From positions 1 to 20,536 of IMG/VR virus record IMGVR_UViG_3300047491_000943: a stretch of DNA of 20,536 nt; one strand, written 5' to 3'. The stretch is from a virus. Below, piece after piece: positions 2,196 to 14,495 of this stretch. A model generated the notes under the pieces. The model had not been told where the DNA came from. It made no database searches and saw only the letters and a list, made by a program, of their open reading frames with translations. A program made the position numbers and the translations under genes. Numbering within the stretch: the first letter of the stretch is position 1; every line of letters begins with the position of its first letter.

Positions 2196-2899
2196 AAATT
2201 CTCCACATCTGTATTTTTAAATATATTCTGTTTTAAGGTATCCCAGTAATCTAATTTATATTGAATTAACTTAGTAGTATAATTATGCTCAAATATACTT
2301 AAAGCTTGCTCTGCCTCGCGATGGGATAGATTAGATATCACTGTAATATAGTTAATAATATGATTATATATCCATGATTTGCTACCTAAGTAATATTCTG
2401 TAGAAATACTAGATATATCATCAACGTCGGCTAAGGGAGCACTAGAAAATTGAAAATATTTAGTATCAGATATTACTCTATTCATGGATACAACTACTTT
2501 ATATAGTAATCTATCCATATATGTGGATAATGGTATTGCACAAGTACCAGATTCTGAGTATGAAAATCTTACAAAATCATGAACAAGAGGAGTGTTAACG
2601 CCGTTAATAAAAAAAGAAGCAATAGTGTAGGCCCTTTTATCTAAACTAGCTTCGCACATTCCTGAGATAATTTCCCAAGCATCGCTCATATCAACCCTAA
2701 TAATTTCTGCGGGCAGCACTGAAAAATGAAGTAGGGATGCTCTAATAAGTACTGAGCTTAATGTGTCAACCGGGTATTTAGAGAAAGAGGAGATAGCTCT
2801 AAAGGCTAATTTAGCTGCGGGCAAATCTCCTCTACATATGCTCATATCAAGCATAGACTCATAAATACCTAGTGTTTCTGGGAGTCTAGTTATTGTCAC
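2111..2899 (-). CDS. Hypothetical helical protein
   Basis: 262 residues, predicted all-helical and soluble. The start is GTG at 2899, which overlaps the stop of the upstream gene (GTGA), with GGATG about 8 nt upstream. The N-terminal half contains CRGDLPAAKLAFRAISSFSK (about 22-41) followed by helices LIRASLLHFS and an SDAWEII segment. The rhythm faintly recalls the helical C-terminal region of MgsA/RarA-type proteins, but this similarity is by eye only and I do not assign it. The gene lies between the ATPase/unknown pair and the small Cys protein, and its 3' end overlaps the latter by 85 nt. No catalytic motif is visible. Confidence 0.72.
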   Translation of the reverse strand: MTITRLPETLGIYESMLDMSICRGDLPAAKLAFRAISSFSKYPVDTLSSVLIRASLLHFSVLPAEIIRVDMSDAWEIISGMCEASLDKRAYTIASFFINGVNTPLVHDFVRFSYSESGTCAIPLSTYMDRLLYKVVVSMNRVISDTKYFQFSSAPLADVDDISSISTEYYLGSKSWIYNHIINYITVISNLSHREAEQALSIFEHNYTTKLIQYKLDYWDTLKQNIFKNTDVENLWNASLRKKVLSRTTEILETRLPIQMPG

Positions 2900-3708
2900 A
2901 AAAATTCATCCAAAGGATCTTCATTATCAGAGTTGCTTAGTGTTATAGTGCTTTCTTCAATATCATCCTCATCTTCATCATCAACGGAATTAGTAATGGT
3001 TTCTGTAGGAGACACTCCGGAAATAACCAGCTTTCTTCCATATATTTGCTGTAGGTGAGCAATATGATCTTCTAGAGTAGAATGTTGGGGTACTACTCCT
3101 TTGGATTCCATCCATTCTTGACATATATTAGCCAGGGCTAATGCTAAATCATTACTATTAATGAGGCTTTTACTTTCCTGCAGGGCGTCATCAATTATAG
3201 CGTGTTCTGCCATCCCTAGTTTAAATGTGATGGTGGTAATAATAGGGGCTTCCTCTACTATAGAAGATTTATCGGCTGTTTTATCTTTTTCTTTTTTCAC
3301 TTGGATATTGAGTTCTTTTACTGTACAGTTCTCAGCCCTATCCATCCACTCTGACACATTACTCTCATCTACTATTCGTATAAGTTCTCTGGCCTTACTC
3401 CATCCCATTCTCTCAAGTCTATCCATGTCCATATTTAGTAATTTGGCTTTACCATATATTTCGACCAAATACATTGCTTTACGATATGCTATTTGTATTT
3501 CTTTATCTATGTAGTCCTCAAAATTTATATAATTCCAATAGGTACTGTATACGTCTTGGTGATATATATCATATAGACACCTAGCCAAGAGCATATATCC
3601 GGACTCTATCATATCCTTTGCTCTAACAGCCTCTTCCCTAAGAAGATCCTGTGGACTTAATGTGTGCATAACTGCTTGAGATTTTCTAGTTATAACTTTA
3701 GTTGCCAT
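2896..3708 (-). CDS. Hypothetical protein, plasmid/phage helical N-domain with acidic tail
   Basis: 270 residues. Residues 20-140 are helical with a recurring pattern seen in phage and plasmid proteins of unknown function: YWNYINFEDYIDKEI, then YRKAMYLVEIYG, then WSKARELIRIVDE, then AENCTVKELNIQVKKE. This recalls the DUF3102/ParB-associated style of DNA-binding helical domains, but I cannot name a family. A linker leads to a second helical block (165-215), and the last 40 residues are strongly acidic (DDEDEDDIEES). The ATG at 3708 has AAGGAG about 7 nt upstream. It overlaps the ATPase gene by 11 nt and the next gene by 4 nt, so it is probably co-translated with both. Confidence 0.75.
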   Translation of the reverse strand: MATKVITRKSQAVMHTLSPQDLLREEAVRAKDMIESGYMLLARCLYDIYHQDVYSTYWNYINFEDYIDKEIQIAYRKAMYLVEIYGKAKLLNMDMDRLERMGWSKARELIRIVDESNVSEWMDRAENCTVKELNIQVKKEKDKTADKSSIVEEAPIITTITFKLGMAEHAIIDDALQESKSLINSNDLALALANICQEWMESKGVVPQHSTLEDHIAHLQQIYGRKLVISGVSPTETITNSVDDEDEDDIEESTITLSNSDNEDPLDEFL

Positions 3709-5302
3709 CTTTTTCTCCTTTTTTTATACTTTTTATATCCCGCAAGGTAGGGATTGACTTTTTAGCGGTAGTATTTTCTTCTGATCCGGATACAGAGCGT
3801 GCTCTAGTGCTCATCCACTCTTTTAATCTTAAATATTCTTCACTAGAAGAATCACTTTGTGGAAGTGTACCATCTATAGATTTAAGAATATACCCAGTAT
3901 CTACCTCTACATTATCATAGAATGCATTAAACATGGCATCTTCAATAGATGCCTCTATTTCAGCCCCTGTGAAATTTTTTGACCTATTGGCAAGAAGAGC
4001 AGTATCAAAGAGAGAAGCATCTCTTTTTCTTCTTTCTAAATGTATTTTAAATATTTCTTCTCTCTCAAGAAGAGTAGGTAAATCCACTGCCCATATTTCA
4101 TCAAGCCTGCCTTTTCTATATATCATGGCTGGTATTAGGTCTGGGTTATTTGCAGTATACACCATAAACACTGGATACGTAGTTTCCTGTCTCCACGTCA
4201 AAAGAGTAGAAAGAACACGAGCAGTTACTCCAGAATCTGTTTTTCCGCTTGCCTCTGAGCCTGATAATGCTTTCTCTGCTTCATCAATTTGGACCACTGT
4301 AGGTGCCACCGCCTCCACTATTTGGAGTGCTCTTCTTAGGTTGGCTTCCGAATCCCCGACGTATCTTCCGAATACTTTTCCCATGTCAAGTCTAAGAAGA
4401 GGAAGTTCAAGAAAAGATGCTAAACATTTAGAAATATGAGATTTTCCGGTTCCGGAAGCGCCAGAAATAAGTATGCCTTTGGGCCAGGGGAGTCCATATT
4501 CTCGTGCCCTGTCGGTAAATGCATCTTTTCTGCGAGCCAGCCATTCCTTTAATGCCCCAAAACCGCCTACATCTTTTAAGCTTAAATCAGTGCTAATATA
4601 CTCAAGAACATCAGATTTCTTTATGTGCTGTTCCTTTTGGGATTGAATTATTTTAGCGTTGGGCTCTGCTGTAATACTAATAGCTAAGGCTAGTGCATTT
4701 TCAGCAGAAAGCATATCAAGTCCTTGAGCAGACATAGCCGCCTTACTTAAAATTTCTTTACGTTTTTTTTTATTCTTGGGAAATTCTAATTTATGATTTT
4801 CCTCCCACGCCTGTATTAGTTCCTCAAATAGAACTTCAATTTCATCTTTAGTAGGAAGAGGGAAATCCACATATGTTACTATATTAAGTAGCTCTGGAGG
4901 AAGAGGAAGAAAAGATCCTATGAATATTATAGTAGAAAAGTTTTGCTTAGCTTTATAAGTAGCGTCTATAATAGCCTGCACAATATTAGGTTGATCTAGT
5001 AAGCTTCTAATATGATAGAATACTCCTATGCATTCTTGGGTATCCGCTACTTTATTAAGGGCTCCTATAAATTCCATGATGGGTCTACTTGTAGGGATAG
5101 CATCACTTAGGCCATTTACCCACTTACCTCTTTGATAAGTTATCATACCTGTCGTAGATTTCCATACCGCTAGTTCTCTATTAACAAAACCTAAATGTAT
5201 TAATGAATCTATAATATGTGATAAAGCTTTACTATCTTCGATAGTGGGTATAAATAAACAAGGATTACTACTAGCTAAATAGTGTAATACCTTAGGCGTC
5301 AT
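3698..5302 (-). CDS. AAA+ ATPase of the Ycf46 type
   Basis: 534 residues. The C-terminal half is a complete AAA+ module: Walker A GASGTGKS (281-288), Walker B VVQIDEAE (336-343, with D340 and E341), sensor-1 region TANN (383-386), arginine-finger region YRKGRLDE (R396, R399) and sensor-2 GAEIE (446-450). The lead-in VGGFGALKEWLARRKDAF (245-262) and LPLLRLDMGKVFGRYVGDSE after Walker A match the Ycf46/COG0464 family of cyanobacteria, plastids and other bacteria. So does the architecture: an N-terminal degenerate AAA-like domain ending in VTYVDFPLPTKDEI (142-155). Length fits the family (about 500). The C-terminal 60 residues are low-complexity and basic. Ycf46 function is poorly defined. Its place among recombination genes suggests remodelling of a DNA or protein complex, which is inference. 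Ribosome site GAGGGG lies 7 nt upstream of the ATG. Confidence 0.92.
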   Translation of the reverse strand: MTPKVLHYLASSNPCLFIPTIEDSKALSHIIDSLIHLGFVNRELAVWKSTTGMITYQRGKWVNGLSDAIPTSRPIMEFIGALNKVADTQECIGVFYHIRSLLDQPNIVQAIIDATYKAKQNFSTIIFIGSFLPLPPELLNIVTYVDFPLPTKDEIEVLFEELIQAWEENHKLEFPKNKKKRKEILSKAAMSAQGLDMLSAENALALAISITAEPNAKIIQSQKEQHIKKSDVLEYISTDLSLKDVGGFGALKEWLARRKDAFTDRAREYGLPWPKGILISGASGTGKSHISKCLASFLELPLLRLDMGKVFGRYVGDSEANLRRALQIVEAVAPTVVQIDEAEKALSGSEASGKTDSGVTARVLSTLLTWRQETTYPVFMVYTANNPDLIPAMIYRKGRLDEIWAVDLPTLLEREEIFKIHLERRKRDASLFDTALLANRSKNFTGAEIEASIEDAMFNAFYDNVEVDTGYILKSIDGTLPQSDSSSEEYLRLKEWMSTRARSVSGSEENTTAKKSIPTLRDIKSIKKGEKDGN

Positions 5303-5849
5303 TTTTTTCCCCTCTTATTTTAGTAATACAATCTTTTTCAGTAATGGTTAGTTCCTTACCAGTTAGTAACTTACCCATAAAGTACGCGTAGCCAAAAGCC
5401 ATTAATCCAAAGGCGTCGGCCTCGTCCGAGGTAACAAATTCTCTTCCGTATCGTTTATATATCCCTAATTTTACATCCTCTTTTTTGGAGTTTCCTTTTC
5501 CGGTAACGAATTTCTTTAGAGAGGTGGGGGGTACCACAATAAAATCAACTCCATTTTCCCATAAATAAAACTTAATGATTCCTCCTAGTTCCATTAAGTT
5601 AGACATTGCAGTTGATTTAGAAAAAGAACCCAGTGCGTATCCCTCGATAAAAAAAATAGCTTCCGTCTCGGCAATCTCAATTTCTATTTCAGCCAGAATT
5701 TTATTATAACGGGTCATATAGTCGTATTTATTGGTAGTCTTTACCACTTTATTACATTCCACTGCTGATGACATTGCGTAGGTCACTATTCCAGTAGAGG
5801 TAAGGGAGAGATCGAGACCTACTATTTTTTCGGGTAATTTCATTTTCAT
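5292..5849 (-). CDS. RuvC-like Holliday junction resolvase
   Basis: 185 residues, near the family's usual length. The RNase H-fold RuvC pattern is clear: strand 1 IVGLDLSLTSTGIV with D13, strand 4 FFIEGYALG with E69, VPPTSLKKFVTGKGNSKKED (107-126) as the basic DNA-contact segment, and C-terminal SDEADAFGLMAFG with D142 and D145. These equal the four acidic metal ligands of RuvC. It would cut four-way and branched DNA before packaging. It is probably the first gene of its own transcript: a promoter (TTGACA, 17-bp spacer, TG-C-TAGTAG) ends 6 nt before the ATG at 5849, so the mRNA may start on the ATG itself, and no Shine-Dalgarno sequence is present. A second in-frame ATG lies at 5843. The 3' end overlaps the ATPase gene by 11 nt. 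Confidence 0.92.
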   Translation of the reverse strand: MKMKLPEKIVGLDLSLTSTGIVTYAMSSAVECNKVVKTTNKYDYMTRYNKILAEIEIEIAETEAIFFIEGYALGSFSKSTAMSNLMELGGIIKFYLWENGVDFIVVPPTSLKKFVTGKGNSKKEDVKLGIYKRYGREFVTSDEADAFGLMAFGYAYFMGKLLTGKELTITEKDCITKIRGEKNDA

Positions 5850-5855
5850 AAAAAT

Positions 5856-5884
5856 CTACTAGCACGTTTTTTAATTTTTGTCAA
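5856..5884 (-). promoter_or_regulatory. Leftward promoter before the RuvC-like gene
   Basis: On the minus strand TTGACA (5884-5879), a 17-bp spacer, then extended -10 TGC-TAGTAG (hexamer 5861-5856). The discriminator ATTTTT runs straight into the ATG at 5849. The -35 box overlaps the stop codon of the Cas4-like gene. The design matches the other leftward promoters in this window. Confidence 0.72.
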
Positions 5885-6732
5885 GTAAATTTTTTGCATT
5901 GTGCTAGGGCGGGGCAATTTTTTGCTACATACGTGGAATACCCGGCAGATACACATAAATCGGAAGGAGGCGGTAAGTCGCCACCTAGGTACCCCTCTTT
6001 AAATTTTACAAGCTTATTTAAAATTTCTTTTTCTACGGAGGACTCTCTTTTAATTATAAAAGTTTTAACGGGAGAGCTGTTAATTTTCATATCCTTTGAT
6101 ATATACATTATGTAACTAATTTTATTATCAAATGGAAGAAGTTTAAATAGGGTATCCTTGCTAAGACCCCACATATAAGAATGAACCTGCCAGACATGTT
6201 CTATGAGTGGAGCCTTTAATTTATCAAAATCATTTCCATTAATAGTTTTAAATTCTACTACTCTGTAATTATTAGCTGGCTTCTCCACAAACATGTCTGG
6301 ATGACCTGTAAGATATAAAGGTTTCTCAATTTTTAGGGGGTACTCAAAATACTCAAATGATGATTTTTTAGCTGCACATGAAGGGCACGCAACTGAAATA
6401 ACTCCTGAGAATTCTGATAGAAATCCGCAGGATCTGCATTTCCATAAGCCTCTACGATAAGAATCATCTATGAATGATTTAGTATTTTGAGCCCAAAAAT
6501 GAACTGCGTTTCCTATACTAAAAACCACATTTTGATGAAATTTATTATATTTGGTATCTTGTATCTGATATCTATTTATTAATACAAGCTGTCTCATACA
6601 ATCATGATAAATGGCTGATGCCCTTGGATAACGAGGTAATTTTTTTTTATCAATAGAACTTTTAACAGATACAAATTCTCTGGTTATTAATTCTGGATCA
6701 CCAGTCTTCTCTATTTGGGTTAGTTCGCTCAA
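5881..6732 (-). CDS. Cas4/RecB-like PD-(D/E)XK nuclease with zinc ribbon and probable Fe-S cluster
   Basis: 283 residues from the TTG at 6732. I chose this start because AAGGAG lies 8 nt upstream; a GTG at 6741 is in frame but leaves no spacing from the ribosome site. Nuclease core: a helix with H78, GHPDMF (D146), VVEFKTI (E160, K162) and WQVHSYMWGL (Q182, Y186), which is the RecB/Cas4 motif order. C45 before the core and C260, C273, C279 at the C-terminus are placed like the Fe-S ligands of Cas4/AddB nucleases. Between them a CxxC...CxxC zinc ribbon (C99, C102, C116, C119) is inserted. The protein probably resects DNA ends for recombination with the neighbouring recombinase. No CRISPR array or other cas gene is present, so a Cas role is unlikely. 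It overlaps the upstream endonuclease gene by 35 nt. Confidence 0.88.
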   Translation of the reverse strand: MSELTQIEKTGDPELITREFVSVKSSIDKKKLPRYPRASAIYHDCMRQLVLINRYQIQDTKYNKFHQNVVFSIGNAVHFWAQNTKSFIDDSYRRGLWKCRSCGFLSEFSGVISVACPSCAAKKSSFEYFEYPLKIEKPLYLTGHPDMFVEKPANNYRVVEFKTINGNDFDKLKAPLIEHVWQVHSYMWGLSKDTLFKLLPFDNKISYIMYISKDMKINSSPVKTFIIKRESSVEKEILNKLVKFKEGYLGGDLPPPSDLCVSAGYSTYVAKNCPALAQCKKFT

Positions 6733-7225
6733 TAAAGGCACTCCTTAAGGTCCACGGAATTAGTATAAAATTAACCTCAGGATATTGCCTTATAAAGGTA
6801 GTTAATTTTGCTCGTTTGCCTATACTAAACAATCCTTTGACCTCTAAAAAACAATTATATGGGCTTTCTATAAAGAAATCAGGTGTATAAGTCTGATCCC
6901 CCACTATAAATGTATATTTTTCATAGATCGGAAAAATTGCACACGTGTGCAAAAATTCCGCTACTGCCGCTTCATATTCAGATCTAAAATTCTTACCTAA
7001 TTTCCAGGAATATGCTGCTGTTAAGCCATCAGGATCTATGCTATCTGTAGCTTCAAAAAAGCTATTAGGGGGTAGTGGGCTAGGAGTTAAATTTTTAAAT
7101 AATTTTATCATCTCCGCTACGCACTCCGGACTGCAGATAAAATCAAAAGAATCATGAAGATATTTTAGTTCTCTTGTGGCGACGGTAATTTTTTCTCCGC
7201 AGGCTTTACAGGTTCTGGTTGGCAA
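6698..7225 (-). CDS. PD-(D/E)XK endonuclease with N-terminal zinc finger
   Basis: 175 residues starting at a TTG (7225). The TTG is supported by AAGGA about 9 nt upstream and by the fact that the first zinc-binding pair lies right after it (C6, C9; second pair C31, C35). The nuclease core follows: FRSEYEAAVAEFL (E83), then YTPDFFIE (D116), then CFLEVKGLF (E128, K130), the E...PD...EVK order of TnsA, DUF1064 and phage endonuclease I-type enzymes. A branched-DNA or nicking endonuclease role in phage recombination is likely, but the substrate cannot be told from sequence. The start lies 61 nt inside the recombinase gene and the end overlaps the Cas4-like gene, so the three nuclease/recombinase genes form an interlocked block. 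Confidence 0.85.
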   Translation of the reverse strand: MPTRTCKACGEKITVATRELKYLHDSFDFICSPECVAEMIKLFKNLTPSPLPPNSFFEATDSIDPDGLTAAYSWKLGKNFRSEYEAAVAEFLHTCAIFPIYEKYTFIVGDQTYTPDFFIESPYNCFLEVKGLFSIGKRAKLTTFIRQYPEVNFILIPWTLRSAFIERTNPNREDW

Positions 7226-8361
7226 ATTTTATTTTCCTTAGGAATAATTTTTTCTATTGTGTGATTCAGAAGCTTATGCTGCACTTCAAAATATAAATCT
7301 TTATTCTTTTTCCACGCATCTATAAAATCTTTCTGAGCCCCTGAATTATTTCCAAATTTATATTTTCCAGAACTAGATTTAACCATTAGCCCAGAATCTA
7401 CCAACCTTCCAGCAACATACTTATAATCAGCTACGTCTCCGCGCTTAAATTCCAATTCGGGTATATCAGCGGTTATCCTTAAAAATTCTCCACCTTCTGA
7501 TAACTTTAATGATTTATATTTCTCAATATAAAAGGAGTGTTTTTGTGCTAGGGTAAGATCTCTTACTTTATCATGATATTTATCTTTATCAGTTAAAGCT
7601 TTTTTAGATATATTAACTGTAATTCCCGAAAAGTGTTTTAACGCATGACCCCCTGGGGTTATAGGGGTAGGTGGTCCGAACATAGAAAAGCCACCTATGT
7701 TAGCACGTAACTGATTAGTTACTATAACTAAGCAAGGATGACCTCTTTTTCGTTCTCTAGCTAACCTGGTATTAACTCTATTCATTAAATTAGTTATTAA
7801 TTTAGCTTGTAAGGCTACATTTTTAGAATCCATGGAAGATTCCATTATTTCAGCAGGAAGCAATGCAGCAATAGAATCTATAACTAATAATCCGCAGTCA
7901 TCTGCGCGTAAAGCAAAATCAGCAACATCCCCATACTCATTTCCTGATTCACTAGTATTTAGGTAATAATCGTCGGGGTCGCAACCAATACATTTAGCCC
8001 AAAATTTGTTAAAAGTTCCTTCTACATCTAGCCACATGCTTCTCATCTTAATAGGGGGTAGGGAGCAACAACACATAGATATAGGTTTATAACATCTCCA
8101 ACATATCTTAGGAACTTTTGACATTGCAGACATAATAAGAGAAGTTTTTCCGCCGTGCTCAGCTCCTTTTATTATAGATACCTGATGTACTGGAAAACCA
8201 CCGCCGCTAGAATGATCAAATATGTAAATACCAGTAGGAAGTCTTGGAGGATCCTCCGGCATATCAGTTCCGTGAACGGAGGTATTATCTCCAAATCTTG
8301 TGTTAAGGCTGCTAGAAATAGCAGCTAGGGTTGATGGCTTCGACTGGTCTTTCTCCGTCAT
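7165..8361 (-). CDS. RecA/UvsX-like recombinase with Cys-rich insert
   Basis: 398 residues. RecA-core motifs in order: TGIYIFDHSSGGGF (43-56), Walker A GAEHGGKTS (66-74), catalytic Glu region WLDVEGTF (E114), Walker B LLVIDSIAALLP (158-169), NQLR (216-219) and a loop-2-like region rich in Gly/Pro (220-238) ending PGGHALKHF. These define a strand-exchange recombinase of the RecA/RadA/UvsX group. Unusually, CWRCYKPISMCCCS (88-101), with five Cys, is inserted between Walker A and the catalytic Glu and looks like a metal-binding element. Two more Cys follow (C124, C127). The C-terminal 140 residues are a helical, possibly winged, extension. It would coat ssDNA and drive recombination-dependent replication with the SSB, SF2 helicase and resolvase nearby. 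The ATG at 8361 has GAGGAG 6 nt upstream. Confidence 0.92.
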   Translation of the reverse strand: MTEKDQSKPSTLAAISSSLNTRFGDNTSVHGTDMPEDPPRLPTGIYIFDHSSGGGFPVHQVSIIKGAEHGGKTSLIMSAMSKVPKICWRCYKPISMCCCSLPPIKMRSMWLDVEGTFNKFWAKCIGCDPDDYYLNTSESGNEYGDVADFALRADDCGLLVIDSIAALLPAEIMESSMDSKNVALQAKLITNLMNRVNTRLARERKRGHPCLVIVTNQLRANIGGFSMFGPPTPITPGGHALKHFSGITVNISKKALTDKDKYHDKVRDLTLAQKHSFYIEKYKSLKLSEGGEFLRITADIPELEFKRGDVADYKYVAGRLVDSGLMVKSSSGKYKFGNNSGAQKDFIDAWKKNKDLYFEVQHKLLNHTIEKIIPKENKICQPEPVKPAEKKLPSPQEN

Positions 8362-8364
8362 CTA

Positions 8365-8706
8365 TTACTCCTCTACATTATTAATAGAAGCTATAATTGT
8401 GTTGACCTTCTTAGCTATTATTTTGTCTACAATTGAATCTGTTTTTTGGTAACACGAAGCAATTTCTTCTACATAACAAGGCACACTAACAGTGACGGCT
8501 ACAGTGGCTCCCCCTAGGTTGGCTCCTAAAGGAATGTATCTTTTTGCATGCACTTCAATACGAGCAGTATCAGTTACAAATGGTTTGATCTTAATCTGTT
8601 TTACTTCTTCTCTAGGCTTACCTATAATAGTTTCATTGACCACTATTAAAGCTTCTTCTTGGGTTTCTTTAATAACTTCTTTGTTTTTATTAGTTGGTTT
8701 CTTCAT
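8365..8706 (-). CDS. Hypothetical small protein
   Basis: 113 residues. The first 25 residues are Lys/Glu-rich and probably flexible. Residues 50-113 look like a folded alpha/beta domain: IEVHAKRYIPLGANLGGATV, then VSVPCYVEEIASCY, then a helix with VDKIIAKKVNTIIASI. I recall similar small proteins in phage recombination/replication clusters, but I cannot name a family or function. Its start overlaps the stop of the SF2 helicase gene (ATGA) without a clear ribosome site of its own, so it is probably translated by coupling. It is followed after 3 nt by the recombinase gene, which suggests a role with one or both. Confidence 0.75.
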   Translation of the reverse strand: MKKPTNKNKEVIKETQEEALIVVNETIIGKPREEVKQIKIKPFVTDTARIEVHAKRYIPLGANLGGATVAVTVSVPCYVEEIASCYQKTDSIVDKIIAKKVNTIIASINNVEE

Positions 8707-10070
8707 ACTCGTGGTCTAACCTCTTTAATTACAAGATTACGATTTTTATAGAATTTTATTCGAGCTTTAGCACTTCTCATAGCAGAAGGGTAGTGAAGAT
8801 CTATAATATCTATCACTACTGGTGATAATTTTCCTTCCAAGAATCGCTCTATTCGACCCAAAACTTGTTTCATGTCGCTGCGTAGCGTACCCAAAATTAG
8901 GCAAGATAGTCTGGGAATATCTGTTCCTCTGGAAAGCATACCATAGGTGGCTAAAATTATTTGACATTTATCCGCTGAATGTTTTTTTTCGGCTTCTTTT
9001 AAATTCTTTCCATCTAGCGATCTTACAAAATATCCTATATCTTCTTTGGGAATTTTAAAAACTTTGGTAAGAATACTTTCTACTTTCTTTAGTTGATCTT
9101 TACGGTCGCTTATTATAAGCGTTGCTCTTCCGGAGTTATAGCTTCGAGTAGCATAATTAGCTATTAAATTATTTCTAACCGGGTTACTTGCCAAATTGGA
9201 TATAAGAACTCCCCTGCGCTGAAGATCTTTTAAATATGAGGGTATTTCCCCCGATGATCCCTTAAACATATGCAGGATAACCGTAGGTTCTAATGTTTTA
9301 GTGTTAGTACATTTAATTCTAAACTGTGCTAGATTTTCTTCAAAAATAACATGAAGTCCGTCTGCCCTAGTAGCAGAAGCGGTCATACCTATTCTGTACT
9401 TTGCTGGGAACATTCCAGAAGCAGATGAAAAGGTTTTCGGAGGAAGGCTACTATCGCATTCATCAAAAAGAACAGCCCCGAAGTAAGAACAAAACTCTTT
9501 TGTAGCAATTCTTTTTATGATAATGCTATGCACTAGCCCTATTACAATTTTCTTATCTTTATATTCTCCAGATCCTCCCTCAATTGTACCTATTTCATTT
9601 TCTTTTACATTAGTAAATTTTAATATTCGGTCTTTCCACTGTTTAACTAAGTCAGATTTTGGAACAATAACTAGGGAAGTCACCCCTAGTAATGATAGCA
9701 TACGCAATCCCATGACTGTTTTACCAGACCCAGGGGCGGCCTCTAGAAAAAATCCAGAGCCGCCCTTCGCTACAAGAGTGGAAAATTCGTTAATAGCTTT
9801 TAGTTGGTAGTCCCACAAAGATCCATTAAATTCTATATCTGCGGGACTACCCATAGAACGTCTATCTTCTAATTCTTCCGCTATAGTTGTAGTAAGGCGC
9901 ACAGCATGTCTAGGTATCCCGAAGTAATAATTATCCTCCTTATAATAAGGAATAACAGGGCCATTAGAATAATTACTCTTCACAGTGTACCTTCGTCTAT
10001 ACGCTTCTACATCAATTTCATTCTTAGGTACAAAGATATGAGTGGATACTATAGCTTTAGAAAATGGCAT
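8703..10070 (-). CDS. SF2 DNA helicase (UvsW/RadD/XPB-like)
   Basis: 455 residues with all main SF2 motifs: LWDYQLKAINEF (Q-motif-like, 85-96), motif I EAAPGSGKTVMG (110-121), motif Ia VIVPKSDLVKQW (134-145), motif II DECD (203-206), motif III TASAT (230-234), motif V ATYGMLSRGTDIP (374-386) and motif VI QVLGRIER (402-409). A DECD box with this spacing, together with an N-terminal extension of about 80 residues, fits the UvsW/RadD/XPB branch, which remodels branched DNA such as D-loops, R-loops and forks. It would pair with the RecA-like protein in recombination-dependent replication. The ATG at 10070 has a GGGA-type ribosome site about 9 nt upstream and follows the SSB gene after 11 nt. Confidence 0.93.
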   Translation of the reverse strand: MPFSKAIVSTHIFVPKNEIDVEAYRRRYTVKSNYSNGPVIPYYKEDNYYFGIPRHAVRLTTTIAEELEDRRSMGSPADIEFNGSLWDYQLKAINEFSTLVAKGGSGFFLEAAPGSGKTVMGLRMLSLLGVTSLVIVPKSDLVKQWKDRILKFTNVKENEIGTIEGGSGEYKDKKIVIGLVHSIIIKRIATKEFCSYFGAVLFDECDSSLPPKTFSSASGMFPAKYRIGMTASATRADGLHVIFEENLAQFRIKCTNTKTLEPTVILHMFKGSSGEIPSYLKDLQRRGVLISNLASNPVRNNLIANYATRSYNSGRATLIISDRKDQLKKVESILTKVFKIPKEDIGYFVRSLDGKNLKEAEKKHSADKCQIILATYGMLSRGTDIPRLSCLILGTLRSDMKQVLGRIERFLEGKLSPVVIDIIDLHYPSAMRSAKARIKFYKNRNLVIKEVRPRV

Positions 10071-10081
10071 TACTATCTTCC

Positions 10082-10939
10082 CTAAAAAAGAGGATCGTCG
10101 TCTTCTGTTTTAGTCTCTGTCTTAGTTTTTTTATCTGAAGTTGTACTGCTTTCTTCTGCCTTCTCCTGAGTGTCCACTTTAATTTTTTCGTCTTCGTCGT
10201 CGTCAATACCAAGCTCATCCAACTCCTCTTTTTCTGGACTATCCTCTAGACTAAACCCAAGTCCTTCTAGCTCAGAAGAGGAATCTCCTCCTAGCGGTTC
10301 TCCTAATCCCACTATGCGCCTAAGATCTGAATTTGGTAATGGCGCTAGAATAGTCATATAATCAAAAGGTTTGAGATATTCTTTAGCATCTTTAGGGTCT
10401 TCATTTACTTTAGCAGCTATTTTATCTAAAGCAGATACCGCTATTTTTTTATCCTCAGTAAAGAACTCACCGCAAGATACTGACTTAGGATCGGTGTCTC
10501 TTTCTACGTCAATGGCGTAGTGAGTTAAATCTAGTTTGTTTGCTTCTAAAAACTGACGTAGCATAGCTCTAATAGCCTTACCTTTAGCTACGTATAAAGC
10601 TTTTTGAAACTGATAAACCTTACCAGTTTTTTCACTAGTAACTTTACGACAATCAATTACTGTTGACACTAAAATAGGAGATCTCTTTACATTAGCCATA
10701 CATAGAGGGCATGTTTCTATCTCATCAGTGCAGGTGTAGTTTTCGTAGTTTCCATTTACTTTTACTGTATGTTCCTGAAGCCAAAGTGACGGATGATCTA
10801 AGAAAATAATTTTAGCCTTCTCTCCTGGCTTTAGCCTAAACCTTCTAACTCGGGATTGATTTGCGGTAATAGCACGTAAGGATTCCATTTCCTTAAATTT
10901 CTTCATACCAGCTAGTCCGGTGGAAAACCAATTTGACAT
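10082..10939 (-). CDS. gp32-like single-stranded DNA-binding protein
   Basis: 285 residues. The C-terminal 65 residues are highly acidic and end in DDDPLF, the type of tip (DDxPF) that SSBs use to recruit partner proteins. The N-terminus is basic (RVRRFRLKPGEKAKIIFLDH), followed by H57, C70, C77, C80 in an H-x12-C-x6-C-x2-C pattern. The H-to-first-C distance and the final CxxC equal those of the T4 gp32 zinc module (H64, C77, C87, C90). Aromatic residues around 105-117 (YQFQKALYV) fit an OB fold. It would coat ssDNA for the helicase, primase and recombinase. It has its own promoter, and the AAAGG ribosome site lies about 10 nt before the ATG at 10939. Confidence 0.85.
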   Translation of the reverse strand: MSNWFSTGLAGMKKFKEMESLRAITANQSRVRRFRLKPGEKAKIIFLDHPSLWLQEHTVKVNGNYENYTCTDEIETCPLCMANVKRSPILVSTVIDCRKVTSEKTGKVYQFQKALYVAKGKAIRAMLRQFLEANKLDLTHYAIDVERDTDPKSVSCGEFFTEDKKIAVSALDKIAAKVNEDPKDAKEYLKPFDYMTILAPLPNSDLRRIVGLGEPLGGDSSSELEGLGFSLEDSPEKEELDELGIDDDEDEKIKVDTQEKAEESSTTSDKKTKTETKTEDDDPLF

Positions 10940-10996: not shown

Positions 10997-11010
10997 TTAA
11001 AATTTGTCAA
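10982..11010 (-). promoter_or_regulatory. Leftward promoter before the SSB gene
   Basis: TTGACA (11010-11005), a 17-bp spacer beginning AATTTTAAAAAG, and extended -10 TGT-TAATGG (hexamer 10987-10982). The -35 and spacer lie inside the last codons of the primase gene. The -35 through spacer is nearly identical to the promoter at 14467-14495, differing by one base over about 26. Confidence 0.72.
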
Positions 11011-12103
11011 ACTTTTTTTGAGCAACAAGCACTTTTTTATTTATGGCCCGCAGTATATCTAATCTATTCTCTGCATCTCCTGGATCTTTTCCTCCTGCAT
11101 TATCCCAATTTATAACATGTAATAACTTTCCATGAGACAGAGCAATTAAGTTTTTCGTAGCTCTTCTTCCCGCATCATCACTATCAAACCCTATCCATAA
11201 ATTAGATGAAGGTATATTATGAATTTGAGACTTAGAAAAACTAGCTGAAGTAGTTGCTATTACATTGTTAAATCCATACGTTTTTAATAAAAGACAATCG
11301 GTCTCAGATTCTACTATTATAACCGGCTTAGTTGAGTCTACCTTATGAAGTCCAAACGATACTCCAGTATCACGAATGTTTGGTAGATTATATTTACCGT
11401 TAACCGCCTTAGAGGAAATGGTAAACATAGATTTATTCCTAGGGTCACATAATCGGGCACGTAAAACTTGAATATTTCCTCGGATATCGGTGAGCGGAAA
11501 TATAATTAAATTCTTTTTCTCATGGTAACGAATTCCCATCTCGGCAATGGATGCTAATGAAATTTTTCTTACATTTATTAGATAATCTTTAATCATAAGA
11601 GCAGTTCTATTGGTTTCCTGAGCCACTAACGGAAAATTAATTAGTAGATCCTCTGGGAATTTTGGCTCCATTGGTATTTTTCTTATTTCTTCTTCGTTAT
11701 GCACACGCTCTAATTTCCATTTATTAAATTTTAGCGAAGAAGAAAATGATTCTGCCTCAAAAACAGCGTTATCCGCTTTTTCTAACTCTGATTCTTCAAA
11801 AATTTCACGACTTTGATAGAATAAAGTAAGGGCTCTATCGTTATACTCATTCTCTAGTGCCTTAGATATTACAAGATCAATAAGTTTAGTAGGTTTAGGG
11901 GTACAAGAAAAGCATTTAAAAAAGGATTCTCCACTTGGATTTATGGATATGCCTGCACTAGGGGTAGTTAAAGATCGCTGACCCGGTTTATGCTTTTTAT
12001 TAACAAGTGGACATATTATATTTATCCACTCATCCCTAACTACCATTTCATGATCTTCATACCCCATCAATCTCAAAAGTCGAACTACGTCTATCTCCTT
12101 CAT
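10997..12103 (-). CDS. DnaG-type DNA primase
   Basis: 368 residues from the ATG at 12103. I preferred this to a TTG at 12136 because GAGG lies 6 nt upstream and the TTG has no clear ribosome site. The N-terminal zinc domain has C31, H38, C64 and C67 (CPLVNKKHKP ... FFKCFSC), a CHC2-like finger with the His four residues later than in the standard CPFH motif. A basic RNA-polymerase-like segment follows (KNLIIFPLTDIRGNIQVLRA, 197-216). TOPRIM motifs are VIIVESETD (E265) and WIGFDSDDAGRR (D307, D309). There is no C-terminal helicase-binding domain beyond TOPRIM, so it is shorter than cellular DnaG (about 580), as is common in phages. It makes RNA primers on the lagging strand, next to its helicase gene, which it overlaps by 47 nt. 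Confidence 0.92.
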   Translation of the reverse strand: MKEIDVVRLLRLMGYEDHEMVVRDEWINIICPLVNKKHKPGQRSLTTPSAGISINPSGESFFKCFSCTPKPTKLIDLVISKALENEYNDRALTLFYQSREIFEESELEKADNAVFEAESFSSSLKFNKWKLERVHNEEEIRKIPMEPKFPEDLLINFPLVAQETNRTALMIKDYLINVRKISLASIAEMGIRYHEKKNLIIFPLTDIRGNIQVLRARLCDPRNKSMFTISSKAVNGKYNLPNIRDTGVSFGLHKVDSTKPVIIVESETDCLLLKTYGFNNVIATTSASFSKSQIHNIPSSNLWIGFDSDDAGRRATKNLIALSHGKLLHVINWDNAGGKDPGDAENRLDILRAINKKVLVAQKKFDKF

Positions 12104-13352
12104 CTTCTTCCTCGGAATCCGGATCCCTTTCAACAACTCGTGTATGATTAGTATCTAGCAATAGCAAGGTACTGCCTTCTTCTCCGTCTCGACCTTTAGT
12201 TATGTTCATAACTTTAGGTTTTATCCCCGGAACCCAGGTCTCGCCCTCATCTTCTGTCTTATCAGCTAACTCTATAACAATACTGGATAACTGTCTAACT
12301 ACATCACTTTGATAAATATCGTCAGTCTTTTTATTTATCTGATAGGTAGCTATAATAGGAATGTTTAGTTCTTTGGCAAGCATTTTTAGTGATTCAGCTA
12401 CCGAGGACACCATCTCATATCTAGATTTAGCGTATGTTTCTGGACGTAATAAGTACGCCCCATCAATATAAATAGCGTCTGGCTTATACACATAAGCTGA
12501 AGATTTCACATCCAGCATGCCTAAACTCATAGAAGCATCAGTCATATAAAACTTATGCTCATTTTTTTCGAGCAGCTCTTTATCATATTTTAATAGTGGT
12601 ATACCTATAACAGAAGAAAGTTCCCCAAATTTAATTTTGTTAACACTTAGGGTATTACGTAAGGCAGCTAATCTTCTATGATACTGAATCTCGGACATTT
12701 CAGTCGGAATCAGCATGACATTCTTTCCAGTTTCGTACGCAGACAGAGCCATATGTAAAAGAAGGAATGTCTTGGAACTTCCAGGGCGCCCAGCAATTGT
12801 AATTAAATCACCACCTTGAGCTCCTCCAGAAGAGTGGTCTAAAAAATTTATGCCAAACGGAATGCCAAAGGTGCTAGAATTTAATCTAGTTTGATTGTGG
12901 GCTTCTAAAAGGGTATCATACGCATCTTCCAGAGAGTATACCCTAGTTTTAGTCTGGCCCTCAATCAAAATCCTTGTCATTCGGGATGCAGCATCCGCGG
13001 CGCTATCAATATCTCCTTCAGTTATTTTTGCTAAAATATCTCTACACATTGTGTAAGAATTTTCTACAGCATACCGCTTCCTGACTTCATCAGCCCAAAA
13101 AGAAACTGTCCCTGACGTAGGCGGATCAGGGAGTGCCGCGCCTATTTCTATCTCTACAAAATTTCTATCTGGAACTGATTTATATAAATCGACATAGTTC
13201 TGAATTAAGTCTATTAACTTTAATTCTACACCAGTAAAATGATTTCGAGTTAACCTAAAGGCACCCATAAAAGATTGAGGACCTTTATCTCTTAGGATAG
13301 CCGTCAAGAATAAGATTCCAGTAGTCGATTCTAATTTTAGTTTATTCGTCAT
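12057..13352 (-). CDS. DnaB-type replicative DNA helicase
   Basis: 431 residues from the ATG at 13352. A GTG at 13364 is in frame, but the GGTGG ribosome site fits the ATG. The helical N-terminal domain (1-150) is followed by a RecA-fold motor: INFLDHSSGGAQGGDLITIAG leading to Walker A GRPGSSKT (188-195), VMLIPTEMSEIQ (DnaB motif 1a, 212-223), Walker B AIYIDGAYLL (293-302), and IPIIATYQINKK (331-342), where DnaB proteins carry the Q/LSR sensor. KPKVMNITKGRDGEEG (378-393) is the family's KxRxG motif region. It unwinds the fork 5' to 3' as a hexamer. The acidic C-terminal tail (DPDSEEEDEGD) may contact the primase. It overlaps the upstream gene by 11 nt. Confidence 0.93.
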   Translation of the reverse strand: MTNKLKLESTTGILFLTAILRDKGPQSFMGAFRLTRNHFTGVELKLIDLIQNYVDLYKSVPDRNFVEIEIGAALPDPPTSGTVSFWADEVRKRYAVENSYTMCRDILAKITEGDIDSAADAASRMTRILIEGQTKTRVYSLEDAYDTLLEAHNQTRLNSSTFGIPFGINFLDHSSGGAQGGDLITIAGRPGSSKTFLLLHMALSAYETGKNVMLIPTEMSEIQYHRRLAALRNTLSVNKIKFGELSSVIGIPLLKYDKELLEKNEHKFYMTDASMSLGMLDVKSSAYVYKPDAIYIDGAYLLRPETYAKSRYEMVSSVAESLKMLAKELNIPIIATYQINKKTDDIYQSDVVRQLSSIVIELADKTEDEGETWVPGIKPKVMNITKGRDGEEGSTLLLLDTNHTRVVERDPDSEEEDEGDRRSSTFEIDGV

Positions 13353-14040
13353 CGCTGTCACCACCGGTAAGCCACGAACTCCGTACCTCTGCTGGAGAAT
13401 TAATATATAGTAAATCTACATTTCTCTTAAAAATATCTTCCAATTTAGGGGAATAATAAGTTCGTAGTCTATGTGTACAGTCAGTTATTGCGTTGTCTCT
13501 ATTTCCAAAGTAGTTGTAGGCGGTGAACAGCACTTTTTTACTGGGATTAGTATTACATATGATATCTTCTAGTACATATTCTATGCTGGGTCCCATACTA
13601 TTTAGCCTAGGATCTGGGTATAATATCCCGGTGAATACACTTAAGCTTTGCTTAAATTCTAATTTTTTATTATAGTTATCCTTATCCAGAAGACTATCTA
13701 TAAGTTTTTTGATGGTAACACGATATACGGATTTGCCCAAATTATTAATAGCATATAATACTGGGAAATAGGCATGTATTTTCCACATTACATCTCCACT
13801 ATTACACACTACAAAGACGCATCTATGTTTCTGAAGCCTATAATGAATTCTATTACAAGTTTCATAAAAGTGAGGATTATCGGATAATACCCTATCTAAA
13901 AGATCTAGGTTTCCAGAAAATCCATTCTCTATTAGCTTCTTATTAACGCTAGTAAATAATGAGCTATGAGATCGTCCATTCTCGTTCGCCTGTTCTTTTT
14001 TTACGGCTAAAAGAGTCTTCATAGGTTTTAAGTTCTTCAT
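13342..14040 (-). CDS. Hypothetical protein, possible degenerate helicase loader
   Basis: 232 residues directly upstream of the replicative helicase gene, which it overlaps by 11 nt. No intact catalytic motif is present. Residues 72-190 follow the order of a DnaC/DnaI-type AAA+ core: a strand VFVVCNSGD where Walker A would be (lacking GxxxxGKT), a helix YFPVLYAINNLGKSVYRVTI, KKLIDSLL, a segment FTGILYPDP where Walker B would be, a helix, then KKVLFTAYNYFGNRD in the place of the sensor-1 strand. This suggests a helicase loader that has lost ATP binding, but it is a by-eye reading. The ATG at 14040 has GAGGG about 8 nt upstream. The first 26 codons overlap the preceding gene by 77 nt. Confidence 0.75.
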   Translation of the reverse strand: MKNLKPMKTLLAVKKEQANENGRSHSSLFTSVNKKLIENGFSGNLDLLDRVLSDNPHFYETCNRIHYRLQKHRCVFVVCNSGDVMWKIHAYFPVLYAINNLGKSVYRVTIKKLIDSLLDKDNYNKKLEFKQSLSVFTGILYPDPRLNSMGPSIEYVLEDIICNTNPSKKVLFTAYNYFGNRDNAITDCTHRLRTYYSPKLEDIFKRNVDLLYINSPAEVRSSWLTGGDSDDE

Positions 14041-14458
14041 ACTCCTCTCCCTCTTTCTCTAAAAAATATTTTAAGGTAATCCAATCCACATAATGATTGA
14101 ACGTATTTAAAATCCTAACTGAATCTAACACTAATTTTAGGTGATCTTTTACAAAAAATAAATTAAAATATAATGAGTGATGTTCCGGATGAAAATATTG
14201 ATATAGTTTGCTTATGGTGGAATAATGTTTTATAATAAGTTCAAGTGTATTGCCATCGCGATTAATTTTATTTAAGATGTACTTATAAGTGTACATCATT
14301 TTATTGTGGTCTACTTTAGGGTCCTTAAAAGAAAAAATTAGGCCGTACCTGCGGCACAGCCATTCTATGTGATTATCCGATTTGGGTCTGGGCACTTTCC
14401 TTTCTCGTATAGCCTTGGTTTGATTAATCACATCTTTTAGATTTATTTTATTTTTCAT
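13964..14458 (-). CDS. Hypothetical protein, first gene of the leftward operon
   Basis: 164 residues from the ATG at 14458; an in-frame GTG at 14476 lies inside the promoter and has no ribosome site. The protein is basic and helical, rich in Lys, His, Tyr and Phe (HHSLYFNLFFVKDHLKLVLD, about 93-112), with no motif I recognise and no signal peptide. Its place as the first gene before a loader-like protein, helicase and primase suggests a replication-initiation or early regulatory role, which is inference from order alone. There is no Shine-Dalgarno sequence, and the predicted transcription start is 1-2 nt before the ATG, so it may be read from a leaderless mRNA. The 3' end overlaps the next gene by 77 nt. 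Confidence 0.72.
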   Translation of the reverse strand: MKNKINLKDVINQTKAIRERKVPRPKSDNHIEWLCRRYGLIFSFKDPKVDHNKMMYTYKYILNKINRDGNTLELIIKHYSTISKLYQYFHPEHHSLYFNLFFVKDHLKLVLDSVRILNTFNHYVDWITLKYFLEKEGEEYEELKTYEDSFSRKKRTGEREWTIS

Positions 14459-14466
14459 TGTTGGTT

Positions 14467-14495
14467 TTATTAACACACTTTTTAAAATTTGTCAA
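14467..14495 (-). promoter_or_regulatory. Leftward promoter at the head of the replication operon
   Basis: TTGACA (14495-14490), a 17-bp spacer beginning AATTTTAAAAAG, then extended -10 TGT-TAATAA (hexamer 14472-14467). Transcription is predicted to begin at about 14460-14459, right before the ATG at 14458. It is almost the same sequence as the SSB promoter at 10982-11010. Confidence 0.75.

Follow-up and report, generated by a model that had tools for sequence, protein, structure and literature searches.

The window analysed here, a 20.5-kb fragment (20,536 nucleotides) of the virus record IMGVR_UViG_3300047491_000943, carries on its minus strand an open reading frame (ORF) of 534 residues (positions 3698–5302; ATG at 5302, stop at 3698–3700), opposite which the plus strand is interrupted by numerous stop codons. 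As judged by Pfam, PHROG and profile matches, predicted fold and alignment, the gene encodes a full-length Ycf46-type tandem AAA+ ATPase, in which a degenerate, D1-like AAA domain (residues 1–235) is followed by a complete, D2-like one (residues 240–500) and a disordered tail (residues 505–534). Pfam AAA matched residues 277–407 (E = 4e-21) and phrog_8638 matched the protein with E = 2e-115. Present in the second domain are Walker A (GASGTGKS, 281–288), Walker B (336–344, with D340/E341), the sensor-1 residue N385, arginine fingers R396/R399 and a sensor-2 motif (GAEIE, 446–450). Residues G284, G286, K287, E341, N385, R396, R399, G446, E448 and E450 were invariant in all 47 aligned relatives, and residue 340 was D in 44 of them, the other three having E. 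Y314 lies beside the invariant G316, at the position of pore loop 1 in classic AAA proteins. An earlier reading of the DNA letters, here called the original prediction, had given the coordinates of the gene and its complete AAA+ core (Walker A, Walker B, GAEIE) correctly; the gene lies on the minus strand.

Assignment to the Ycf46 type was made with a profile of 12 cyanobacterial chromosomal proteins (from Pseudanabaena, Leptolyngbya, Synechococcus, Cyanaurora and RYN_339), which stood in for the named slr0374 and plastid ycf46 sequences. The slr0374 gene of Synechocystis is Ycf46 (PMC7496141). The window protein matched this profile over residues 9–505 with 392 bits, and was ~32–35% identical to the aligned cyanobacterial members; FtsH-type AAA proteins from the same genomes scored 114–125 bits. 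In three cyanobacterial genomes, full-length members reached at least 349 bits and all other AAA proteins at most 90. A second profile, made from the first 220 positions and excluding the AAA core, matched the window protein with 68 bits (E = 7e-20); in the loci examined it matched a second family copy in one locus (L116) and no non-family ORF. A tree made by a quick method, with FtsH-type sequences as the only outgroup, separated that outgroup from all others with a Shimodaira–Hasegawa-like approximate likelihood ratio (SH-aLRT) support of 100, and the window-like clade had support of 99. The NCBIfam models for CDC48 (89 bits, cut-off 803), FtsH (69 bits, cut-off 600) and the anti-phage ATPase IteA (53 bits, E = 2e-14, cut-off 510) matched the AAA core only, as did the PAN and CdvC profiles, far under their cut-offs. 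The Ycf46-type call of the original prediction therefore stood, neither FtsH nor Cdc48 being the best match. Its description of the family as known mainly from cyanobacteria and plastids was too narrow: Ycf46-type proteins, a subset of COG0464, were found at least in Planctomycetota, Chloroflexota, Armatimonadota, Omnitrophota, Bacillota, Myxococcota, Verrucomicrobiota and archaea, and also on plasmids and in many phages.

An AlphaFold2 model of the protein, built with 47 relatives, had a predicted local distance difference test score (pLDDT) of 90.2 and a predicted TM-score (pTM) of 0.81. It places a beta-alpha-beta core at residues 15–129 and a four-helix lid at 152–229, followed by the second AAA domain. 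By Foldseek and VIA-align the whole chain resembled the tandem D1–D2 rings of p97/Cdc48, Drg1 (AFG2), NVL, Rix7 and Pex1/Pex6 (VIA Z 25–29), with which it also shares complete D2 motifs. The best VIA match (Z 28.6, root-mean-square deviation 6.6 over 460 residues) aligned model residues 2–501 with p97 211–763, whereas the second AAA domain by itself fitted p97 D2 or Vps4 to 2.3–2.8 Å; we read the large whole-chain deviation in the models as the result of a differing relative placement of the two domains. Unlike the p97 group, to which identity was 15–20%, the window protein has neither a p97-type N-terminal adaptor domain nor a P-loop in its first AAA domain. The N-half profile, the predicted fold and the alignment to p97 D1 together identify the N-terminal half as a degenerate AAA domain, as originally predicted. 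None of 183 family members had a P-loop in this half, so that in the whole family the first domain is expected not to bind ATP in the canonical manner. The cyanobacterial members resemble the window protein in their full-length homology, a P-loop-less first and a complete second AAA domain, and the same conserved positions.

The gene lies within a long row, g170 to g1, of genes on one strand. In order of transcription the row begins with g170 and g232 (together 13342–14476), a DnaB-like replicative helicase (12057–13364; Pfam DnaB_C E = 2e-27, phrog_19 E = 7e-52), a TOPRIM DNA primase (10997–12136; phrog_47 E = 6e-34) and a probable single-stranded-DNA-binding protein (SSB; 10082–10939), which was assigned by its position and its acidic tail and had no Pfam match. 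There follow a superfamily 2 (SF2) DNA helicase (8703–10070; Pfam ResIII E = 6e-22, phrog_16 E = 9e-45), the small conserved protein g113 (8365–8706), whose family occurs in 22–23 loci, and a RecA/UvsX-like recombinase (7165–8361; Pfam RecA E = 4e-25, phrog_97 E = 7e-41). Next come a phage endonuclease I-like resolvase (6698–7225; phrog_945 E = 3e-11, Phage_endo_I E = 1e-6, slightly below cut-off), a PD-(D/E)XK nuclease of the Cas4/RecE-like exonuclease kind (5881–6741; PDDEXK_1 E = 1e-5, phrog_2506 E = 4e-23) and, directly upstream of the AAA gene, a RuvC-like Holliday junction resolvase (5292–5849; phrog_159 E = 7e-30). Downstream are g270 (2896–3708; phrog_17202), which overlaps the AAA stop, then g262, g103, a helix-turn-helix (HTH) protein, a ParB-N domain protein (771–1616; ParB_N E = 2e-10, phrog_26387 E = 9e-49) and g1. 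Among the rightward genes from 15025 onward are those of a prohead protease and of a capsid protein. The original prediction had placed the ATPase in a phage recombination cluster, and the row does combine replication and recombination genes in an order that is conserved among relatives. It had also called the genes co-transcribed, which is a prediction from their common strand and from the 11-base overlaps of the AAA gene with both RuvC and g270.

A profile-guided scan of viral contigs with the family alignment yielded 80 loci, whereas single-protein scans of viral contigs with the window RuvC and g270 returned no relatives, because such scans reach close relatives only. Three settings were distinguished. 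The window type (setting A) comprised ~25 viral contigs with AAA proteins 37–64% identical to that of the window, the same row of genes, and a single clade; RuvC was next upstream of the AAA gene in 17 of 26 loci, and of the 25 loci in which a downstream gene is visible, 21 have g270 in that place. In large phages (setting B) the AAA gene is grouped with a DnaC-like protein, DnaB and primase. In setting C, on plasmids, phages, and bacterial and archaeal genomes, it is found with DUF1257 and DUF2997. Across phage records at large, the AAA protein was matched in 116 of 50,697.

Members from cultured phages have already been deposited, annotated merely as 'AAA-ATPase', so that the presence of the family in phages is not itself new. 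Those of Rhizobium phage L338C, Pseudomonas phage SM1, Rhodobacter phage RcDurkin, Aeromonas phage HJ05 and Mycobacterium Corndogvirus phages belong, with phrog_8638, to the same family as the window protein at 28–35% identity. In the open-licence papers searched we found no description of a phage Ycf46 as such.

Several further features were observed among the relatives. In many large phage contigs (L043–L070) a degenerate DnaC-like gene, c21, sits after the Ycf46-type AAA gene and before DnaB. Vibrio SIO-2-type phages and Stenotrophomonas phage DLP_5 (L222, L224, L225) have a shorter AAA protein of ~404–413 residues, in which the Ycf46 N half was undetectable. A close relative of the window has a 951-residue terminase-like gene (L016:13061–15916) with an intein and an HNH endonuclease (Intein_splicing E = 4e-9, HNH_3 E = 1e-6), apparently at the ATPase P-loop. 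In a relative with a 64%-identical AAA protein, a TnpB-like gene on the opposite strand (L017:9585–10754) lies between AAA and g270, and looks recently inserted. The Treponema succinifaciens plasmid pTRESU01 encodes a 37%-identical Ycf46-type AAA protein (L002:9318–11473), which stands, with a radical S-adenosylmethionine (SAM) 4Fe-4S protein, within a contractile-injection/baseplate gene cluster.

The downstream neighbour g270 was modelled as a helical protein (mean pLDDT 74) that closes with a disordered acidic stretch and a short C-terminus of acidic and hydrophobic residues. By sequence it had no match among solved structures. By fold, seven of its eight top chains were ParB/Spo0J/Noc proteins, with a weak resemblance to the ParB/Noc-like HTH. 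Profile comparisons of g270 as a diverged DUF1257, p210 or DnaC-like c21 were negative. An acidic, hydrophobic-ended tail is common to g270 and the probable SSB in many window-type phages: the respective tails are DPLDEFL and DDDPLF in the window, and DIDDLLGI and DIDDLL in one relative (L028). The SSB of another (L039) ends in DDDIPF, like bacterial SSB. The likeness of the tails suggests that g270 and the probable SSB may dock on the same phage protein. AAA and g270 were both matched in cultured phages of Vibrio (32 records), Rhizobium (6), Rhodobacter (5) and Stenotrophomonas (4), and the window-type capsid also occurs in those host groups; the two genes therefore appear to have belonged to a single broad phage lineage for a long time.

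The neighbourhood of setting C extended well beyond phages. DUF1257 is the Pfam family of plastid and cyanobacterial Ycf35 (PMC4284462). In the Pseudanabaena and Leptolyngbya chromosomes the AAA gene stands directly ahead of a 116-residue DUF1257 gene, and in phages L338C, HJ05, RcDurkin, JP1 and SM1 it is followed downstream by DUF1257 and DUF2997, where the window has g270. DUF1257 or DUF2997 was found within 5 kb of the AAA gene in 60 of 87 loci (plasmids, 7 of 9; cultured phages, 4 of 5; genomes, 25 of 44; other viral loci, 24 of 29). These samples include related, non-independent loci and, for plasmids and phages, loci picked from the best matches. The corresponding counts were 0 of 22 for setting A and 0 of 19 for setting B. 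Among 17 cultured-phage records with an HJ05-type DUF1257 gene, at least 11 were also among the AAA matches listed, an overlap far beyond chance given how few phage records the AAA protein matches. Several AAA loci also have a 4Fe-4S/radical-SAM protein. We take DUF1257/Ycf35 and DUF2997 to be the usual partners of the motor in most other lineages. The original prediction missed this link because the window has neither gene.

The fate of these partners in window-type phages was followed in longer records. In the window, neither DUF1257 nor DUF2997 was found by Pfam (20 proteins scanned) or by sensitive profiles. Of eight window-type contigs searched over their whole length, four (G007–G010) had a DUF2997 match above cut-off. 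DUF1257 adjoins it there, as confirmed with an independent profile from which these sequences had been left out (E = 9e-16 to 5e-8). Both genes were absent from G004, G005, G006 and the 46-kb G011 (G006 and G011 as judged from Pfam alone), and the two nearest relatives (102.7 and 98.0 kb) had no DUF1257, DUF2997, p110 or p210 even at loose thresholds; these absences are soft, because records may be incomplete. The two genes belong to a conserved row of four, p210x-DUF1257-DUF2997-p110, which in sister phages (L195–L198) is found upstream of the replication genes and shares their strand. This quartet is absent at the head of the window's row, which begins with g232 and g170, and g232 had no detectable relation to the 211–225-residue gene at the sister-phage head. 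In cultured phages, too, a gene of the p110 family comes after DUF2997. No Pfam match was obtained for the p210x and p110 proteins tested, and a profile comparison of p210 (cultured phages) with p210x (sister phages) gave 3% probability of a single family, so that their equivalence rests on position only. One or both of DUF1257 and DUF2997 occurred elsewhere in 9 of 17 other records, mostly of setting B. The simplest reading for phages of the G007–G010 type is that the AAA gene moved within the genome while the DUF1257/DUF2997 row stayed; in the window's own subclade both genes appear to be missing.

Taken together, the fold, the motifs and the kinship of the protein make an ATP-driven, ring-forming protein remodeller its most likely activity, and we hold this with considerable confidence for a prediction from sequence and model. 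Six copies would most likely form a two-tier ring. The upper ring (residues 1–235), presumably ATP-dead, would dock partners, and the lower ring (240–500) would hydrolyse ATP and pull a polypeptide through the central pore by way of Y314, as in Cdc48/p97/Drg1. In the phage, such a motor would most likely take apart or remodel the protein complexes that sit on phage DNA during replication or recombination, with the translationally coupled g270 as adaptor or substrate; a DNA-side adaptor is a fair guess. From gene context, including that of the setting-B phages, which place the AAA gene beside a DnaC-like protein and DnaB, the chance that it acts on replication and recombination complexes seems even or slightly better. 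The explanation as a whole, a Ycf46-type motor remodelling these complexes, may be right or wrong in about equal measure. The original prediction had proposed a new role in phage DNA metabolism or takeover of the host; the context suggests the former, and host takeover found no support.

Several observations weigh against this explanation. For the phage members it draws on sequence, fold and context, and an operon can reflect co-regulation and not shared function. The position of the AAA gene varies among phage lineages, its plasmid and chromosomal neighbours are mostly not DNA-metabolism genes, and g270 in cultured phages lies ~13–21 kb from it and is not adjacent. The fold matches of g270 are weak (E = 0.5–3). 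An aromatic residue occupies position 314 in only 15 of 47 relatives; most of the others have a hydrophobic one there (L in 22, I in 6). The sole studied member, Synechocystis Ycf46 (slr0374), has been tied to CO2 use (PMC7496141, citing Jiang 2015). In the main rival the motor, as cellular Ycf46 may do, serves metal or radical enzyme maturation or activation, cofactor handling or metabolic regulation, working as a set with DUF1257, DUF2997 and radical-SAM/4Fe-4S proteins and tuning host or phage metabolism. The frequent presence of DUF1257 or DUF2997 in non-window-type loci, the 4Fe-4S/radical-SAM proteins of several of them, the pairing of DUF2997-ycf35 with the ferredoxin fed7 in Synechocystis (PMC4284462) and the lower activity of the carbonic anhydrase EcaB in Ycf46 mutants (PMC7496141) all speak for enzyme activation. 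For the window-type phages we nonetheless consider it unlikely: none of the 22 window-like loci had DUF1257 or DUF2997 near the AAA gene, sensitive profiles found neither in the two nearest ~100-kb relatives, and no 4Fe-4S gene was recognised in the window.

The place of the window AAA gene in one row with DnaB, primase and RecA, and its position in large phages immediately ahead of a DnaC-like gene and DnaB, would also suit a factor that puts the replicative helicase or recombinase onto DNA, takes it off or recycles it there. Those large phages have their own DnaC-like protein, however, the protein is of the Cdc48/Vps4 type in fold and motifs, and family members are common on plasmids and chromosomes where no DnaB lies beside them, which makes a loader rather improbable. 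A part in phage–host conflict, as a takeover or anti-defence factor or as the IetA/SgiA-like ATPase of a toxin pair, has the IteA match to the AAA core in its favour. SGI1, moreover, has an AAA antitoxin (SgiA) of the broad SpoVK/Ycf46/Vps4 superfamily (PMC10954446), with whose core that of the window protein, like that of IteA/IetA, belongs. Yet the IteA score is confined to the core and far below its cut-off, no S8 protease or toxin was recognised beside the AAA gene, and a conserved replication-row gene in diverse phages is unlike typical accessory anti-defence genes; we think such a role improbable. Some cultured relatives carry the annotation 'ATP-dependent zinc metalloprotease', as would befit an FtsH- or ClpX-like unfoldase feeding a protease, but the protein has no protease domain, its FtsH score is low and core-only, and the well-supported separation of FtsH-type sequences as an outgroup leaves this highly improbable.

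To our knowledge, no biochemical function has been assigned to Ycf46 or Ycf35, two 'hypothetical chloroplast reading frames' retained by red-algal plastids and cyanobacteria. The AAA family itself was known; its neighbourhood link with DUF1257 and DUF2997 is new here, and no paper linking Ycf46, Ycf35/DUF1257 and DUF2997 as a set was found among the open-licence papers searched. Since a Ycf46-type motor adjoins a Ycf35-family gene across many phyla, the two probably work together. It is conceivable, although we lean against it, that Ycf46, Ycf35 and DUF2997 are one ancient AAA+ set that spread on phages and plasmids and left two orphans in plastids, and that window-type phages moved the motor from such a set into the replication/recombination row, gained g270 and in some cases dropped the old partners, making of it a repurposed fork remodeller. 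The setting of the window gene, a phage replication row, differs from that of Ycf46 itself (Synechocystis slr0374, plastid ycf46), which is a stress operon or the vicinity of ycf35. Among 127 red-algal plastids, the absences of ycf35 and ycf46, and of pbsA and ycf34 with them, are correlated, which the authors read as habitat adaptation (PMC5940233); the gene neighbourhoods offer a functional reading of that pattern for ycf35 and ycf46. Two long-unexplained plastid genes are thereby linked and their function made testable, and the small versions in cultured phages (Pseudomonas SM1, Aeromonas HJ05, Rhizobium L338C) provide a simple system in which the set may be tested.

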